A stretch of 64,000 bases of DNA, taken from positions 1 through 64,000 of the forward strand of contig CAIQWB010000139.1 of NCBI GenBank assembly GCA_903875465.1, in the 5' to 3' direction. The notes beneath the pieces were generated by a model. The model worked only from the letters and a program-made list of their open reading frames with translations, searched no databases and had not been told where the DNA came from. Both the position numbers and the translations under genes were made by a program. How positions within the stretch are numbered: position 1 is the stretch's first letter; each line of letters begins with the position of its first letter. This document shows, in pieces, positions 735 to 7,772 of this stretch. Source of the stretch: an uncultured Verrucomicrobia subdivision 3 bacterium (GTDB lineage Bacteria; Verrucomicrobiota; Verrucomicrobiia; Limisphaerales; UBA11358).

Positions 735-1523
735 ATGCAACCATTACAAAAAAACAACCCGGAACCAGGGGCGTTGCCCTGGAGCTGTCCCAGGGCGTTC
801 ACGTTGATAGAGCTATTGGTGGTGATTGCCATCATTGCGATTTTGGCGGCGATGCTGCTGCCGGCTTTGAGTGCGGCCAAGGGGAAAGCGCTGCAAATTC
901 GCTGTGCCAGTAATCACAAACAACTCGCGCTGGGCTGGTGCATGTATCAAGAGGATAATCGCGGCCGGTTGGTGGTGGATGATCCCTGGGGCGGCACGAA
1001 TTTCCCGAGCTGGGTCTATGGGGAAATGCCGTATCCCAACGACGCGACCAATACGACGCTGATCCAGATGGGCTTGCTGTTCCCGTATGCGCCGAATGTG
1101 GGGGTGTATCGCTGTCCGGCCGACACTACCGTGCATGATCGCAGTTACAGCATGCAATCCCAACTGGCGTGCTACAAGTCCGGCCAGCCCTACGACTCCA
1201 TGGCGGGACTGGGGGTTGCGGGTTATCCATCCGAATACGCGGACAGCCAGATGATCAAGCCGCCCCCGGTGCTCACGGTGGTTTTTCTGGATGAGAGCCC
1301 GTTGAGTTTGAACGATGGTTATTTTGCGCTGAGTGTGCAGGGTGACTCATGGGGGGATATTCCGGCGAACTGGCATGCGCGCGGTTGCAATTTTTCATTT
1401 GCCGATGGCCATACGGAGCATTGGCGGTGGCAGGACCCGCGCACGGTGACCCTGACCCCGTCCGTGTCGACGCCCAATAATTCGGATTTGAAACGTTTGC
1501 AGGCGGCCATGGCCACGCCTTAA
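735..1523 (+). CDS. Pseudopilin-like secreted protein with prepilin N-terminus
   Basis: A 262-residue protein with a type IV/type II prepilin signature: a short leader, then [20 protein letters not shown] (about residues 22-41), the processing site and hydrophobic helix of pseudopilins. The C-terminal part has an NFSFADGHTEHW stretch, matching the H-X9-DG type ending common in Verrucomicrobia and Planctomycetes (DUF1559-like) proteins. Such proteins exist in large paralogous sets and are thought to be exported or assembled by a type II/IV pilus-like system; the individual role is unknown. The start at 735 gives a plausible leader, though no clear ribosome binding site precedes it. It stands alone, downstream of about 700 bases of gene-free repeat DNA. 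A paralogue is at 32972. Confidence 0.85.
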   Translation: MQPLQKNNPEPGALPWSCPRAFTLIELLVVIAIIAILAAMLLPALSAAKGKALQIRCASNHKQLALGWCMYQEDNRGRLVVDDPWGGTNFPSWVYGEMPYPNDATNTTLIQMGLLFPYAPNVGVYRCPADTTVHDRSYSMQSQLACYKSGQPYDSMAGLGVAGYPSEYADSQMIKPPPVLTVVFLDESPLSLNDGYFALSVQGDSWGDIPANWHARGCNFSFADGHTEHWRWQDPRTVTLTPSVSTPNNSDLKRLQAAMATP

Positions 1524-1712: not shown

Positions 1713-2948
1713 CTACCTTAACGCAAACCATTGCTCGTGCAGGGCCACAGCCAGGTAATACGCACCGCAGACGGAAATCAGACCGGAACCGTAACGGGGT
1801 ACGGCGGTGGCCAGGGCGGGCGGGCCCGCGCGGCGGCTGAGGGCGAGCAAGGCAAAGAGGGGTAGCACGACGACTTGGTGGCCGGTTTCCACGCCCAGGC
1901 TGAATGCGCCCAGAGCGGTCCAGAGAGGGGCGGTGGGCAGGCCGGCCATGGCGTCCAGCAAGCCGCCCGCGAAGCCGAGGCCGTGGATCAAACCGAAGCC
2001 GAAGGCCACGGCCAGGCGCAGGCGGGAAGGCGCGCGTGGCGGTCGGCACACATTTTCCAGCGCCACGAAGACGATGCTGAGGGCAATCACGGGTTCCACC
2101 ACCCAGGCGGGCAGCCGGCAGATGCCGAAGGCGCAAAGGCTCAGGGTGAGGGTGTGGGCCAAGGTGAAGGCCGCGATGACCCGGACCATTTCCCAAAAGC
2201 GGACCGTGGCCAGGATCAGGGCGGCGACGAAGAGCAAGTGGTCGTAGCCAGTGAGGATGTGCCAGACGCCCTGGGCGAAATAGTCGCGAAACAGGTGACT
2301 GCCCGTCGGGGTGGTCGCGATTGGTGTGGGGTCGGGGGTGGTGGCCGGCCGCCAGCCGGTGGGGGTGGGGGTGGCGATTTGCCGGCGCAGCAGCCAGACG
2401 GTGGCGGCGGGGGTATCCAGGCGTTTGGTGCGGACGGTGTAACTCACTTCCCACGGGGTGCCGAGGGCATAGGGCCATTCGTGCAACATGTCCTGGCAAA
2501 TGGTGACTTCGGCGGGGGGCGTACCGGTCCAGGGATACACCAGTTCGCATTGCCAAAAAGTGTTCTCGGGTTCGGCCAGGGCGGGCGGCGGGGTCATGCG
2601 CACCACCCGTCCGGCCAGCGTCTGGGTGCCGGCAGTGAGGGTGAGGTGGTGCAGGATGTAATCTGCCTGCGCATTGGCGGCGGCGGCCAGACGGGACGGG
2701 TCCGGCCGGGCCAGCTCGCCGGTGGGCCAGCCGGCCACCACGGCGATTTCCCGGAGGGATACCGTCAAGGCCACGTGAGCCTGGCTGGGTTCAAATTGCA
2801 CCCAAAGAGCATTTTGCAAAGTGGGGTGCGCCCGGCCGGTGATGCTGGTGAAACAGAGGAGCACCCAGGCCAGCCAGGAACAGCGGGAAAATGCGCCGCG
2901 ATTGGGGCTGTGAAGCCCGGGAACTCCCTGGCTGGCGGGGGTGTTCAT
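1713..2948 (-). CDS. HupE/UreJ-2 family membrane protein with secreted N-terminal domain
   Basis: A 411-residue protein: signal peptide (to about residue 40), an extracytoplasmic domain of about 160 residues with a Pro/Thr-rich linker, then a C-terminal half of roughly six membrane helices. The motif GVWHILTGYDHLLF at the start of the membrane part, with its conserved His and Asp, is the hallmark of the HupE/UreJ-2 family; a second motif, FGFGLIHGLGFA, follows. Related HupE/UreJ proteins are nickel/cobalt permeases, but the long-N-terminus group has no established substrate. It is the last gene of a four-gene operon: its ATG overlaps the stop of the upstream phosphoesterase (ATGA). The neighbours suggest a role with secreted metal-dependent proteins. 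No hydrogenase or urease gene is nearby, so the classic role is unlikely here. Confidence 0.85.
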   Translation of the reverse strand: MNTPASQGVPGLHSPNRGAFSRCSWLAWVLLCFTSITGRAHPTLQNALWVQFEPSQAHVALTVSLREIAVVAGWPTGELARPDPSRLAAAANAQADYILHHLTLTAGTQTLAGRVVRMTPPPALAEPENTFWQCELVYPWTGTPPAEVTICQDMLHEWPYALGTPWEVSYTVRTKRLDTPAATVWLLRRQIATPTPTGWRPATTPDPTPIATTPTGSHLFRDYFAQGVWHILTGYDHLLFVAALILATVRFWEMVRVIAAFTLAHTLTLSLCAFGICRLPAWVVEPVIALSIVFVALENVCRPPRAPSRLRLAVAFGFGLIHGLGFAGGLLDAMAGLPTAPLWTALGAFSLGVETGHQVVVLPLFALLALSRRAGPPALATAVPRYGSGLISVCGAYYLAVALHEQWFALR

Positions 2949-4366
2949 CGGGCGGTGATCACGCAGGTATCGGCCGGGGGCGTGGCCGGAGTGGCACCGG
3001 TTTTTACGTAGGTGACGGAGACGGATTGCGGGGACACGATGACCCGCACGTGGCCGGGATTGCCCAGAAACACGCCTTTTTGATAGCCGTAATTTGACAA
3101 ATCACGAATGCGATCGTCCCCGGCGAAACTGGGTTGAGGGACCATTATATACTGAATTCCGGCCAGTTCCTGCCGGGCATAAAAGTTGTCGTGCGCCTTG
3201 AACACGGCGGCGACCCCGTGGCGCGCCAGCAATTCTGCAACCGGAGCGGCCCAGCCTGGCCGCTGGGTGGCGAAGCCCGCACTGCCATCCAGGTTTTGGC
3301 CGCCCCATTCGTTGCGACGGGCGATTTCCACGCCACCGCGCGAGGCCTGGTCGCCGCTGAGCAGATTGTGGATGAAGACGAATTTAAATTTGGCCGGGCT
3401 CGCGGCCAGGGTGTGGTCCAGCCATTCATATTGGGTGCGGCCGAGCGACCAGCCCCAGCCATCGCGATTGCGCTGGGGGAGGGAATAGCGAAAAGGATCC
3501 AGCACCACCAGCAGGGCGTCGCCCCAGGTGAAGGCATAGTAATCCTGGAGGGGGCCGGTGCGCGGGTCGGGCTGGCGATTACCGGTGTAAAAATCATCGG
3601 GCAAGGGATTGGGATAATAGCGGGTGCGAAGCCGTTGCGACCAGACTGCGAGGCAGGTATCCGAGCCATCGTCGTAGCGGGCACTCTCGCCATCGTGGGT
3701 GCCGAGGGCCAGCAGGAGGGGCGTGGCGGCCCCAATTTGGCCGAGGTAATAGCGTTGGGCCACGTATTGTTGGGCGGCTTCGGCCCGGGTGTGGTGTTTG
3801 TCCGTCATGAACAGATTACCCAAATCCAGATGAAAATCCGGCTGCTCCGCCCGAATGTCCTGCAAGGTCTGCTCGTAGACGCGCGGGCTGGTGTGCTCAT
3901 CCAGATGGCAATCGGCTGTGAGGGTGAAGGTAAAGGTGGCACCCGGGGCGCGGGTGGTGGTAAAGGTGCCGTGCGCCGGCTGGCCCAGGTCCACCCTGCC
4001 AATGGTCTGGGGACGAAAGGTGTAATAATACCGGGTATTGGCCGCTAATGGTGCGAGTGTGAAGCTGGCGGGGGCCCCGGCTTGGAAGGACTGCGCGGGG
4101 GTTTGCTGGGTCAGGTCATTGGCATTGGTGCCATAATTTACCTGCCCGCTCAGGTTCTGGGAGGCCAGAACACACAGGGAGATGCGGTTGGCCTCGGGCC
4201 GGCACAAAATCAGATCATAAGGATGGGCGGGCACAGTGACGTTAAAATAATTCGTGCCGCCGCCGCCCTGGTGGCCCCGAGGACCGGGCGGTGCAGGGTG
4301 GTCAGTTTGGGCGGCCAGGCGGAATGAGCCGAGCGTGAGCAGGACAGCAGAAAGGTGCTTAAGCAT
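2945..4366 (-). CDS. Metallophosphoesterase paralogue with changed metal ligands
   Basis: 473 residues from the ATG at 4366. I chose this start because MLKHLSAVLLTLGSFRLAAQ is a signal peptide and the ATG lies inside the last codons of the upstream gene (8-base overlap); an upstream start would add 30 residues with no signal. It has the same layout as the preceding gene: signal peptide, Gly-rich stretch, fibronectin-like domain (about 45-138), calcineurin-like domain (about 145-450). The metal-site motifs are altered compared with the paralogue: D152-C-H154 is kept, but GD becomes GN184, GNHE becomes GTHD (222-225), HH becomes HN (333-334) and GHDH becomes AHDN (391-394). Loss of the bridging Asp and of a late His suggests weak or no hydrolase activity. 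It may be a pseudoenzyme partner of the upstream protein. Confidence 0.85.
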   Translation of the reverse strand: MLKHLSAVLLTLGSFRLAAQTDHPAPPGPRGHQGGGGTNYFNVTVPAHPYDLILCRPEANRISLCVLASQNLSGQVNYGTNANDLTQQTPAQSFQAGAPASFTLAPLAANTRYYYTFRPQTIGRVDLGQPAHGTFTTTRAPGATFTFTLTADCHLDEHTSPRVYEQTLQDIRAEQPDFHLDLGNLFMTDKHHTRAEAAQQYVAQRYYLGQIGAATPLLLALGTHDGESARYDDGSDTCLAVWSQRLRTRYYPNPLPDDFYTGNRQPDPRTGPLQDYYAFTWGDALLVVLDPFRYSLPQRNRDGWGWSLGRTQYEWLDHTLAASPAKFKFVFIHNLLSGDQASRGGVEIARRNEWGGQNLDGSAGFATQRPGWAAPVAELLARHGVAAVFKAHDNFYARQELAGIQYIMVPQPSFAGDDRIRDLSNYGYQKGVFLGNPGHVRVIVSPQSVSVTYVKTGATPATPPADTCVITAR

Positions 4367-5936
4367 GGCTGGCCTTGGGTTTGAGGGTGTAACTGTGGGC
4401 AATTTCCCCCGATGTGTGGCTGGCCGATTCATCCGCCGGCAAATAGCTGCGCACATAGTCCACTTTCACGCCTTCGGGAGCCACGGTGACGCGCAAATGC
4501 CCGGCATTGGGCCGCTTCACCCCGGAGCCGTAACGCTCCTCGTTGTAGGTAACGTAACCGTGATCCGCCGGCATGGGCACCTCCTGATAGATGATGCCAT
4601 CCTTTTCCTGGCGAGCGTACAAGTGGTCGTGGCCTTGAAAGAAAATGGTCACGCCGTGTTTGACCATCAGTTGATGCACCGGGAGTTCCCAGCCCGGACG
4701 GCGCTCGGTGAATTCCCAGTCCCCGCGCCGGTTGCGGCCGCCCCATTCATAAAAATCCGCCTGGTCCACGCCGCCGCGGCCTGAGCCCAAGACATGGTGG
4801 GCAAACACAAATTTATATTTGGCCTGGCTGCGTTCGAGGGTTTGTTTGAACCATTGATATTGGGACTCGCCGAGAGTGAGCCCCCACCAGTCGCGGTTTT
4901 TGCGGCCTGGATCCTGGCCACCGCCGCCCCCGCCACCACCGCCGCCGGGTCGGTCATGGAAGCCGGTGTCCACCTGGACGGGGGTCTGCCAGTAATTATC
5001 CAAGACTACAAAAAGGGCGTCGCCCCAGGTCCAGGCGTAATAATCTTTGAGCAACCCAATTTCGGGTAATGGCCGGGTATCGCCGGAATAAAAGGCGTCA
5101 GGCCCCACCGTGGGGAAGTAAGTATTGCGGGCGTGCTGGGCCAAGATGGCCACTTGATGCCGTTCGTCCGTCTGGCGGTAATTATACAAAGAGGCCTGCT
5201 CATGATTGCCATTCAGCAAAAATACCGGTGCGGATTGGGAAATCAGACCCAGGAAGGGTCGTTGCAACGTGTAGCGGGCGTCCACCGCTGGCGCGGTCAC
5301 TTCGCGGATGGGTTCCAGGCTGAAATCATCGCCCATGCAGAGGTGGAAATCCGGGTGGTCCGCCGCCGCCTGTTGCAGGGTCCGGGCGTAGAGCGCGGGA
5401 TGGCTCATTTGCGGGCGTTCCGGATGCGAATCCCCCTGGATGGCAAAGGTGAAGGTGCTGCCCGCCGCGCGCTGGGTATGAAACCGGCACTCGGCTCGAA
5501 TCGTGAACGCGGCGGCCCCCGGTTCACGGTAGTGGCAGCGGTAATAATATTGGGTGTTCGGGGCCAGTTCGCCCAGGACTTGCTCGGTGGACCGGCCGGC
5601 GGGCAGGGGCAGCACGGGCGTGCGTTGCGGATATTGCCCAGCCTGGGTGCCGTATTCGAAGAACGCTTCCAAAGGCACTTTGGGAAGGGCGCTGATGGTC
5701 ACGGACTGGTCGGTAATCCGCCCGAGGACCAGCGACAGATAAGCATATTCGGCCAGTTCCGGGGGCAGGACATAATTATCCGCGCCGCGCCGGTGTCCGC
5801 CGCCACCGCCGCCGCCCCCATCCGGTCGGCGCGGACGGGGCGAATCAGTGAATTGGCCCCAAGCGGAGGTGCCCAGCCAGGCGAGGGTGCTGGAAAGGAA
5901 ATAGAGGAACGAACGACGATTGGTTCTTAGATTCAT
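4359..5936 (-). CDS. Secreted metallophosphoesterase (calcineurin-like), intact active site
   Basis: 525 residues. The N-terminus (RRSFLYFLSSTLAWLGTSAWG) is a signal peptide with a twin Arg followed by a hydrophobic run, so Tat export is possible. A run of eight or more Gly follows (about 40-47), then a purple-acid-phosphatase-like fibronectin domain (about 60-150) and a metallophosphoesterase domain. All expected metal-site motifs are present: GDSH (168-171), GDD (202-204), NGNHE (242-246), HH (380-381) and GHDHLY (435-440). A second run of ten Gly at about 331-340 interrupts the catalytic domain between motifs. It would hydrolyse a phosphomono- or diester outside the cytoplasm; substrate unknown. 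It is second in the operon, six bases after the YHYH-PEBP gene, and overlaps the following paralogue. Confidence 0.9.
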   Translation of the reverse strand: MNLRTNRRSFLYFLSSTLAWLGTSAWGQFTDSPRPRRPDGGGGGGGGHRRGADNYVLPPELAEYAYLSLVLGRITDQSVTISALPKVPLEAFFEYGTQAGQYPQRTPVLPLPAGRSTEQVLGELAPNTQYYYRCHYREPGAAAFTIRAECRFHTQRAAGSTFTFAIQGDSHPERPQMSHPALYARTLQQAAADHPDFHLCMGDDFSLEPIREVTAPAVDARYTLQRPFLGLISQSAPVFLLNGNHEQASLYNYRQTDERHQVAILAQHARNTYFPTVGPDAFYSGDTRPLPEIGLLKDYYAWTWGDALFVVLDNYWQTPVQVDTGFHDRPGGGGGGGGGGQDPGRKNRDWWGLTLGESQYQWFKQTLERSQAKYKFVFAHHVLGSGRGGVDQADFYEWGGRNRRGDWEFTERRPGWELPVHQLMVKHGVTIFFQGHDHLYARQEKDGIIYQEVPMPADHGYVTYNEERYGSGVKRPNAGHLRVTVAPEGVKVDYVRSYLPADESASHTSGEIAHSYTLKPKASHA

Positions 5937-5942
5937 CGGGAT

Positions 5943-7730
5943 TTACTGGTTGGGTTCGCCGGAGGGAGGTGCATCCGCACCGCCTTGGCGGCGGATGGCT
6001 GCCGTGCGGTCGTAAATGACGCGGAGTTCGGCGCTGTCCAAAATATTGGTGCGCATGGCGGCCAGCAGCACGGCCCGGCTAATTTCTTCGGCCGGGCGGT
6101 TGATGGTCACGGGGGCGGACAGGGCATAGACGGTGAGCCGGTAAATTTTCGGCCCCGGGCCTTTGGAATGGGGCGGAGCGTAACCGACTTCATCGTTCAC
6201 GCTGTTATTGCCCAGGGTGCCAATGCCCCGGACGTTTTTCGGAAGGTCGTGCACACTGGCGGGGAGGTTGTACAGCGTCCAATACCACTTCACATCGCCC
6301 GGTCCGGGGATGTGGTGCATAATCACGGCAAAACTTTTTGTGCCGGCCGGTTCGCCGCTCCAGTCCAAAGGCAGGGTGGCGGCGGCCCCATCACCGGTGA
6401 ATTCCACCGGGAGCGCCCCGCCATTGGTCACGGCGGAACTGTGCAGCACCAGGTGGCCGGTGCGCGGGGGCGTAAATTCAGTGGTCGCCGCGCGGCGGGC
6501 GGGGCGGGCCGGGTCGCGGGGCGGGCGGGCGTCGCCATCCGGGGGCGGGCCATTAGGACGATCGGGAGGACCGTTGTCGTCGGGCGTGGAATCAGGTTCG
6601 GCCCGCCGGCGGCGTGGCTGTTCCCCCGGCGGCGGCCCGCCGCCATCCCGTGCCTGATAGGTTTTGGTGACGGTGGTGCCATCCGCGTTGTTATACTGAA
6701 AGCGCCAGGTCCCGTTGCCGGTCGTGGCATAATTCACACTGGCGGGCTGGCCATTCACGGTATAGCGCAGGGCAAAGGTCTGCTCATCCGGGGAAACCGT
6801 CAGATCGGTGATGCTGGCACCGGGCAGAGGGAAGGTGGCCGGCCGCACGGAGCGCGCGCGGGGTTGGGGGTCCACCTGGCCATTGCGTTCCACCACTTCA
6901 CCATGAAAACCGCCATTGACGAAGGGGTATTTGGTGGAGGCATGATAATGATAGCCCACCCCCGTTGTGGCATGGCCGTGAAAGGCATCCAATCCGGTTA
7001 ACGGCGAGCCATCCGGTTCGGTCAGCCCGTAAATCGCGTAGCCATCGAGGGCATAGGCGATGGGCCTTCCGGGTCCCACGAGGCTTTGCAAATGGAGCGG
7101 GGCGGCATGGTAATGATAATCGTCCCCGCGCCCGCAATGGCCGCCCCATTGATCCAGTTCGCCAATATCGGCGGAAATTTCCCCGCGGTTGTTTTGGGGG
7201 TTGAAAATGGGAATGCCATTGGCCGCAATCGCAATCGCCCCGCGCAGAAAGCGGCCGCGGATGCTCAAGGGATGCTGAGCCGGCACGGGATTCAGCGGGA
7301 GCCGCCAGGCGTTGTCCCCGGTATAGGGCTGGGGCAGGGGCACCTGCTGCTGCCAGGCGGTGATGCCGGTCATCATGCCATGGGCGGGCAACCCATTATC
7401 CTCAATGTAGAGATACTGGTTATCCCAACGCACCATCACGCGGGGCGCAAAGACGGCAAACACCTCGCTCTGGGGCGGCACTTGGCCGGCGCTGATGGGC
7501 GGGGTGTTCAAAACTCCGGGTGCCGGGTTGCCAGCCGGACCGGTCTGGGCGAGGAACCAACCCGGGGTCACGGTCAGGGGTGGCTGCACCGACCAGTCAT
7601 AGTGTGGGTTCGCCGGGTCGCCCGTCAAATTATGGGCGACGGCCGGCTCTGCCAGCAACGTTATAGCCAGGAAGGCCCACGACCTACACTGGTCACCCAC
7701 CCGGCCTGTTGAAAAAGGTAATTTGAACAT
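5943..7730 (-). CDS. YHYH-domain protein fused to a PEBP (YbhB/YbcL) domain
   Basis: 595 residues from the ATG at 7730; I prefer this to a TTG seven codons upstream because it follows AAGGTG and begins the signal peptide ending near AVAHN. The N-terminal two thirds is a YHYH protein: DDYHYHAAP at about 203-211 and GVGYHYHAST at about 257-266, both rich in potential metal-binding His. A Pro/Arg/Asp-rich linker (about 360-415) joins this to a phosphatidylethanolamine-binding-protein-like domain (about 420-590) with the family's typical central segments. YHYH proteins are secreted and of unknown function; bacterial PEBP proteins of the YbhB type are also poorly understood. It heads the four-gene operon, with a TTAAG-N6-TTAAG element 24 bases upstream of its start. 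Confidence 0.88.
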   Translation of the reverse strand: MFKLPFSTGRVGDQCRSWAFLAITLLAEPAVAHNLTGDPANPHYDWSVQPPLTVTPGWFLAQTGPAGNPAPGVLNTPPISAGQVPPQSEVFAVFAPRVMVRWDNQYLYIEDNGLPAHGMMTGITAWQQQVPLPQPYTGDNAWRLPLNPVPAQHPLSIRGRFLRGAIAIAANGIPIFNPQNNRGEISADIGELDQWGGHCGRGDDYHYHAAPLHLQSLVGPGRPIAYALDGYAIYGLTEPDGSPLTGLDAFHGHATTGVGYHYHASTKYPFVNGGFHGEVVERNGQVDPQPRARSVRPATFPLPGASITDLTVSPDEQTFALRYTVNGQPASVNYATTGNGTWRFQYNNADGTTVTKTYQARDGGGPPPGEQPRRRRAEPDSTPDDNGPPDRPNGPPPDGDARPPRDPARPARRAATTEFTPPRTGHLVLHSSAVTNGGALPVEFTGDGAAATLPLDWSGEPAGTKSFAVIMHHIPGPGDVKWYWTLYNLPASVHDLPKNVRGIGTLGNNSVNDEVGYAPPHSKGPGPKIYRLTVYALSAPVTINRPAEEISRAVLLAAMRTNILDSAELRVIYDRTAAIRRQGGADAPPSGEPNQ

Positions 7731-7746
7731 GCGGCACCTTAACCGA

Positions 7747-7772
7747 GGCAACCTTAAGCGGGCATTAAGGCG
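7747..7772 (-). promoter_or_regulatory. TTAAG-N6-TTAAG response-regulator-type box, copy 1
   Basis: Two TTAAG half-sites at 7754-7758 and 7765-7769 are spaced 11 bases start to start, one helical turn. On the minus strand it reads CTTAAT-N5-CTTAAG, matching YTTAAK-N5-YTTAAK. The 26-base element matches 35360-35385 at 22 positions. It lies immediately upstream of the YHYH-PEBP operon. The format is known for OmpR-family regulators (BqsR/CarR, PmrA/BasR); which regulator acts here is not visible. Confidence 0.6.

Follow-up and report, generated by a model that had tools for sequence, protein, structure and literature searches.

Gene organization of the locus

In the window, the 64,000-nucleotide stretch of DNA analyzed here, taken from a 5.3 Mb genome that is 96% complete and most likely belongs to a freshwater Verrucomicrobiota, ORF calling placed four neighbouring minus-strand genes at 1713-7730 (-). 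The close packing described in the original prediction agreed with the ORF coordinates: the HupE and MPE2 genes overlap by 4 bases (2945-2948) and the MPE2 and MPE1 genes by 8 bases (4359-4366), while a gap of 6 bases (5937-5942) separates MPE1 from YHYH-PEBP. MPE2 was placed inside the ORF 2945-4456 (-), with its likely start at 4366. The prediction had also described all four products as exported or membrane proteins that combine YHYH, PEBP, phosphoesterase and HupE-type families; the former point was upheld, and for the latter Pfam scores were above cut-off in three of the four products, the second phosphoesterase being the exception. The genes and features are as follows.

5943..7730, minus strand: YHYH-PEBP protein, 595 aa (Pfam YHYH and PBP above cut-off; predicted model)
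7632..7634, minus strand: codon of His33, predicted first mature residue of YHYH-PEBP, with cleavage between AVA and HNLTGDP (-3/-1 cleavage rule and alignment)
4359..5936, minus strand: MPE1, exported metallophosphoesterase (Metallophos 36.4 bits; motifs; Tat-type signal)
2945..4366, minus strand: MPE2, degenerate metallophosphoesterase paralogue (motif losses, tree, dN/dS)
1713..2948, minus strand: HupE/UreJ-2 membrane protein with N-terminal Ang domain (HupE_UreJ_2 137.8 bits; fold match 9GCE)
2826..2828, minus strand: codon of His41 of HupE, the residue that falls on copper ligand His1 of RbAng-1a (structural alignment range)
7752..7769, minus strand: PmrA-type response-regulator box (two head-to-tail half-sites 11 bp apart)
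7736..7741, minus strand: putative -10 element TAAGGT (TANNNT-like hexamers at the matching place in most aligned loci)

Downstream of the operon lies an ORF whose N-terminus resembles that of type IV pilins (735-1523, plus strand).

The YHYH-PEBP protein

Pfam assigned both a PBP/PEBP domain (64 bits, cut-off 24) and a YHYH domain (PF14240; 40 bits, cut-off 25) to the first gene product, which consists of a signal peptide, the YHYH domain (approximately residues 78-361) and the PEBP domain (residues 425-575). The predicted model has a mean pLDDT of 81, with values above 90 over most of both domains. A fold search with this model matched the PEBP domain to 3n08 (Z 22.7), and the list was filled by PEBP structures. 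The domain shares the fold of bacterial PEBP/YbhB proteins (PF01161; 3n08, 1fux, 1fjj) with Z of 21-23 over ~146 residues, but differs from them in its fusion to YHYH and in having an invariant histidine where the DPD motif stands. DPD is the canonical ligand-pocket motif of the PEBP family (PF01161); here it is replaced by MHHIP, and H473 is present in 58/58 aligned proteins.

In the YHYH domain, H198, H206, H208, H253, H261 and H263 as well as D203, D204 and D229 are found in all 58 aligned proteins, and His33, the predicted first residue of the mature protein, occurs in 54 of the 58. The YHYH motifs and the conservation of His and Asp are shared with the YHYH domain proteins of phage tails (PF14240), which are predicted Zn-dependent hydrolases (PMC7824862). 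In contrast to the phage-tail proteins, those described here are cellular, carry a signal peptide, two YHYH motifs and a predicted N-terminal His, are fused to PEBP or to EF-hand-like repeats, and have a sulfatase and an MPE as neighbours. The exchange of PEBP for EF-hand-like repeats was seen by eye in several congeners (L034:5684-7174, L035:6003-7493, L037:11165-12655 and L062:6195-7757). At L053:5205-7418, a PEBP protein with an LTXXQ/Spy-type domain is another possible metal-sensing swap.

HupE and the predicted N-terminal histidines

The membrane domain of HupE was identified as HupE_UreJ_2 (PF13795) with 137.8 bits against a cut-off of 24.5, and contains the motif HX5DH as H230-D236-H237. 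No match to HupE was obtained in the PDB by sequence, and 9GCE, the copper-bound Ang-1, was undetectable from the single sequence. With the predicted model (mean pLDDT 84), 9GCE was the top match both in Foldseek (1.5e-5) and in VIA-align (Z 13.1), the structural match covering 148 residues at an rmsd of 3.2 and 14% identity. Residues 41-208 of the model fall on residues 1-168 of the 9GCE chain, and His41 therefore aligns with the copper ligand His1; this histidine is invariant in 20 HupE homologues. On the basis of its model, HupE is an anglerase-type metal catcher with a periplasmic Ang domain, a predicted N-terminal His and a metal-permease membrane domain.

HupE has in common with the anglerases Ang-1 and Ang-2 with HupE/UreJ-2 permease (PMC12537917; 9GCE) the His, here predicted, directly after the signal peptide, the Ang beta-sandwich fold and the PF13795 membrane domain. 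Ang-1 binds copper with a Kd near 70 nM, and Ang-2 genes often lie near metallophosphatases, which are frequent neighbours, as in the present operon (PMC12537917). The host differs, being of Verrucomicrobiota type here, whereas Ang-1 is placed mainly in Pseudomonadota, and an anglerase operon with YHYH-PEBP is not reported in that study (PMC12537917).

With signal cleavage predicted by a crude -3/-1 rule, a histidine stands at position +1 in 20/21 HupE and 64/96 YHYH proteins, as compared with 2/61 MPE and 1/75 sulfatase proteins. The pattern is thus specific, since it is common in the first two groups and rare in the others. In both HupE and YHYH-PEBP, the first residue of the mature protein thus appears to hold a metal ion. 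The metal theme originally proposed for the cluster is supported.

An intact and a degenerate metallophosphoesterase

MPE1 was recognized by the Pfam Metallophos model (36.4 bits, cut-off 21.5) and gave no match in the PDB by sequence. All five binuclear-metal motifs that mark an active metallophosphoesterase (PF00149) are present, namely GDSH, GDD, GNHE, AHH and GHDH, as in metallophosphoesterases and purple acid phosphatases (PF00149, PF16656, PhoD). A Tat signal such as that of MPE1 is typical of PhoD-type enzymes. The twin-arginine motif TNRRSFL, with a Tat motif also in MPE1 of the genus, suggests that the enzyme is exported folded and loaded with metal. MPE1 differs from PhoD and purple acid phosphatases in its pairing with a paralogue that lacks metal ligands, and the PhoD (PF09423; 18 and 14 bits against a gathering score of 27) and PAP-N scores found here are below cut-off. 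MPE1-type proteins in general retain the five motifs.

That paralogue, MPE2, had been called a changed one, and rightly so: it has no Metallophos match, and only sub-threshold matches to Pur_ac_phosph_N and PhoD were obtained from Pfam. It departs from the five-motif pattern through the loss of several metal ligands, with GN for GD, GTHD for GNHD, HN for HH and AHDN for GHDH. Losses of this type (GN, GVH or GTH, HN, AHDN) were identified only in the window and in L034, L035 and L036, and these four degenerate proteins form one clade in the tree with a support of 100/100; MPE2-type proteins outside this four-congener clade keep the metal motifs, fully or nearly. Within the clade dN/dS is 0.13-0.25, with 0.21 for the sole unsaturated pair and dS high or saturated in the rest. 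Judging from these ratios, MPE2 is under purifying selection in the four genomes. A decaying pseudogene was considered and rejected, the reading frame being open in all four and dN/dS at 0.13-0.25 with the same qualification on dS. In L036 a degenerate MPE2 occurs with no HupE nearby, and the presence of HupE and the losses in MPE2 therefore need not be linked.

The promoter region and its candidate regulators

The sequence CTTAATGCCCGCTTAAGG stands in front of the operon. Upstream of YHYH-PEBP lies the box CTTAAT-GCCCG-CTTAAGG, whose part CTTAAT-GCCCG-CTTAAG occupies 7753-7769 on the minus strand, with one exact match in the window against 0.01 expected per 64 kb. Of the metal-type regulatory box foreseen in the original prediction, the box itself is thus real, but its type is that of a PmrA-type direct repeat: two TTAA half-sites lie 11 bp apart before the operon, which is the architecture of the PmrA box (PMC3973317). 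A MerR-type inverted repeat was set aside, since relatives conserve the direct TTAA repeat with its 11-bp spacing. In six loci, the window and five relatives, YHYH is preceded by the repeat TTAA-N7-TTAA at -38/-39, where ~0.2 would be expected from the background rate over all upstream stretches, and the same box precedes an arylsulfotransferase gene in L075 and L110. The putative -10 element stands between the box and the ATG, 10 nt from the former and 5 nt from the latter, and a -10 at this place would imply a leaderless mRNA.

The pattern YTTAAKNNNNNSTTAAKG has two matches in the 5.3 Mb genome. As its reversed form, used as a control, has five, this number is weak evidence by itself, and the argument for the box is its shared context: the second match precedes an orthologous response-regulator gene, with 70% identity to the regulator gene that lies divergent from YHYH in L034. 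After this second exact box, at L182:2219-2236 (C76:17054-17071) of the window genome, come the response regulator and then a histidine kinase whose sensor region is acidic and proline-rich.

Regulator and kinase genes near YHYH are mostly divergent. The relatives' regulators gave their best or level scores with the PmrA and cztR/silR/copR models, all below cut-off, and their kinases scored best with the cztS/silS/copS models, also below cut-off. For the heavy-metal response regulator model TIGR01387, the regulators of L034, L046 and L121 reached 212.8-228.2 bits against a cut-off of 279.2. The PhoB model also scores on the regulators, with PmrA and the metal types ahead. The CTTAAT-N5-CTTAAG direct repeat, the PmrA-like response regulator and the autoregulatory-looking site are shared with the PmrA/PmrB regulon of enteric bacteria, which differs in its target genes and host.

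Recurrence in other genomes

The four genes are not adjacent in this genome alone, as three congeneric genomes, the window's included, and one MAG assigned to Armatimonadota carry all of them together. In the genus, the full form is contiguous in the window's genome, G215 and G235, with HupE directly after MPE2 in each; the junction in G235 was read from two contigs that overlap by 137 identical bases. In the MAG (L121, Chthonomonadaceae, Armatimonadota) the genes overlap in the order MPE2-MPE1-HupE-YHYH-PEBP and are accompanied by a divergent kinase/regulator pair. Only 1 of 31 genomes of its order encodes a full-length YHYH protein, and L121 is therefore to be seen as a case of transfer or, possibly, of wrong binning of the contig. 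YHYH is followed by HupE in L075 and L110, and two congeners, G042 and G206, have YHYH and MPE without HupE adjacency. Within the order, the five proteins nearest to HupE, that of the window included, are all from genomes with YHYH and MPE.

An MPE homologue is present in 48 and a YHYH-PEBP match in 50 of the order's 245 genomes, and the two occur together in 34 genomes where 9.8 would be expected (Fisher p 1.5e-18, uncorrected for phylogeny). In the loci around MPE matches, YHYH or YHYH-PEBP stands beside MPE in many families. Within 2 kb of YHYH in 80 named loci, an MPE was on the same strand 21 times and never on the opposite strand, and a sulfatase 60 times and once, respectively, these counts being of hits and not of independent genomes. 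A formylglycine-type sulfatase is the commonest neighbour of YHYH-PEBP and lies between YHYH and MPE in many relatives. In Verrucomicrobiota, YHYH-PEBP stands repeatedly next to MPEs and, with greater frequency, next to such sulfatases; sulfatases adjoin YHYH-PEBP in Planctomycetota as well. The formylglycine-type cysteine motif (C-x-P-[ST]-R or related) is present in 58/60 aligned sulfatase rows, including four with CECSR. In most YHYH-MPE loci the sulfatase occupies the place where HupE would be, and HupE is found beside YHYH/MPE only in a small lineage. The co-occurrence expected for the module is thus conserved for YHYH and MPE, but HupE is lineage-specific and the widespread partners are the sulfatase and one MPE. 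In its wider form the module therefore consists of YHYH-PEBP, a sulfatase and an MPE, with HupE as a lineage-specific addition.

In some relatives the sulfatase gives way to arylsulfotransferase, FGE-like, Lcl_C and SGL domains, which are in some cases fused with two MPE domains in proteins of more than 3000 residues. Giant predicted proteins of more than 3500 residues, with two MPE domains each, lie at L038:2981-14239, L042:8535-20000 (which reaches the end of the locus) and L041:1063-11703; the one from L038, which was scanned with Pfam, also has Lcl_C, FGE-sulfatase, SGL and arylsulfotransferase domains. Further very long open frames were observed in relatives of the locus, at L045:15102-20000 and L052:3-6400.

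A possible metal-capture and ester-hydrolysis module

Metal capture and the cleavage of phosphate or sulfate esters outside the cell are the probable functions of the four-gene cluster. The best reading, to which we assign about an even chance, is an exported metal-capture and ester-hydrolysis module under two-component control. In this proposal the four genes would form one operon that is switched on by a PmrA/CopR-type two-component system via the repeat at 7752-7769. MPE1, or the sulfatases in relatives, would split phospho- or sulfo-esters outside the cytoplasm, with MPE2 as a putative non-catalytic partner. YHYH-PEBP would bind an anionic ligand in addition to metal, and may also be the enzyme that hydrolyses this ligand. 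HupE would catch a transition metal, most likely copper and possibly nickel, and pass it inward; we infer the inward direction from the family of HupE. The release and uptake of a metal-chelated phospho-compound, put forward in the original prediction, is a hypothetical function.

Alternatively, the genes may serve the scavenging of phosphorus and sulfur, with MPE1, the relatives' formylglycine sulfatases and arylsulfotransferase-type proteins acting on phosphorylated or sulfated organic matter and the metal-binding proteins only supplying or buffering cofactors. The frequency of sulfatase neighbours with their cysteine motif in 58/60 rows points in this direction, as do the giant proteins that join MPE, FGE-like, Lcl_C, SGL and ASST domains, and copper enzymes include the formylglycine-generating enzyme itself (PMC4505483). 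However, the window operon is without a sulfatase, and the regulator models favour PmrA and metal types over PhoB, though PhoB scores; we regard this alternative as possible but improbable. A quite unlikely explanation is envelope remodelling combined with metal stress under a PmrA-like logic, where the targets of the phosphoesterases and PEBP would be phospholipid or phosphoethanolamine head groups, with excess metal buffered by the N-terminal-His proteins. The PmrA-type box and response regulator, the PEBP fold and the two-component systems that adjoin in many relatives are consistent with it, but the PEBP domain has an invariant His in place of the canonical DPD motif, no lipid-modifying transferase is present in the operon, and HupE-type proteins are permeases and not buffers. 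Chance adjacency of unrelated exported proteins, which the few genomes with HupE adjacency and its lack in G042 and G206 might suggest, is very improbable given that congeners and a MAG assigned to a different phylum show the arrangement again, and given the same-strand bias, co-occurrence and common box positions.

Returning to the metal-capture and ester-hydrolysis module, every protein family in it is known, and the neighbourhood of HupE and metallophosphatases has already been noted for Ang-2 (PMC12537917). The original prediction knew of no described pathway with this combination, and we likewise found no paper on it in the open-licence literature, nor any description there of YHYH with sulfatase, PEBP, MPE or HupE. 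Also not found in that literature were the combination of HupE and metallophosphatases with YHYH-PEBP, the predicted N-terminal His of the latter, the conserved ligand-poor MPE2 and the regulator link. More tentatively, YHYH-PEBP proteins might be a family of N-terminal-histidine metalloenzymes that is widespread in Verrucomicrobiota and Planctomycetota. Together with formylglycine sulfatases and phosphoesterases, joined in this operon by an anglerase and by a phosphoesterase partner that is catalytically dead, they would release and capture metal bound to phosphorylated or sulfated ligands; we consider this a speculative and rather unlikely extension.

For the hundreds of YHYH-PEBP proteins, on which almost nothing has been published, a testable role can now be stated: they have a predicted metal site at the N-terminus, and their fixed partners are a sulfatase, a phosphoesterase, an anglerase and a two-component system. 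Anglerases, for their part, share an operon with two paired enzymes and with a candidate regulator, and their role is therefore testable through a joint response to metal and phosphoesters.
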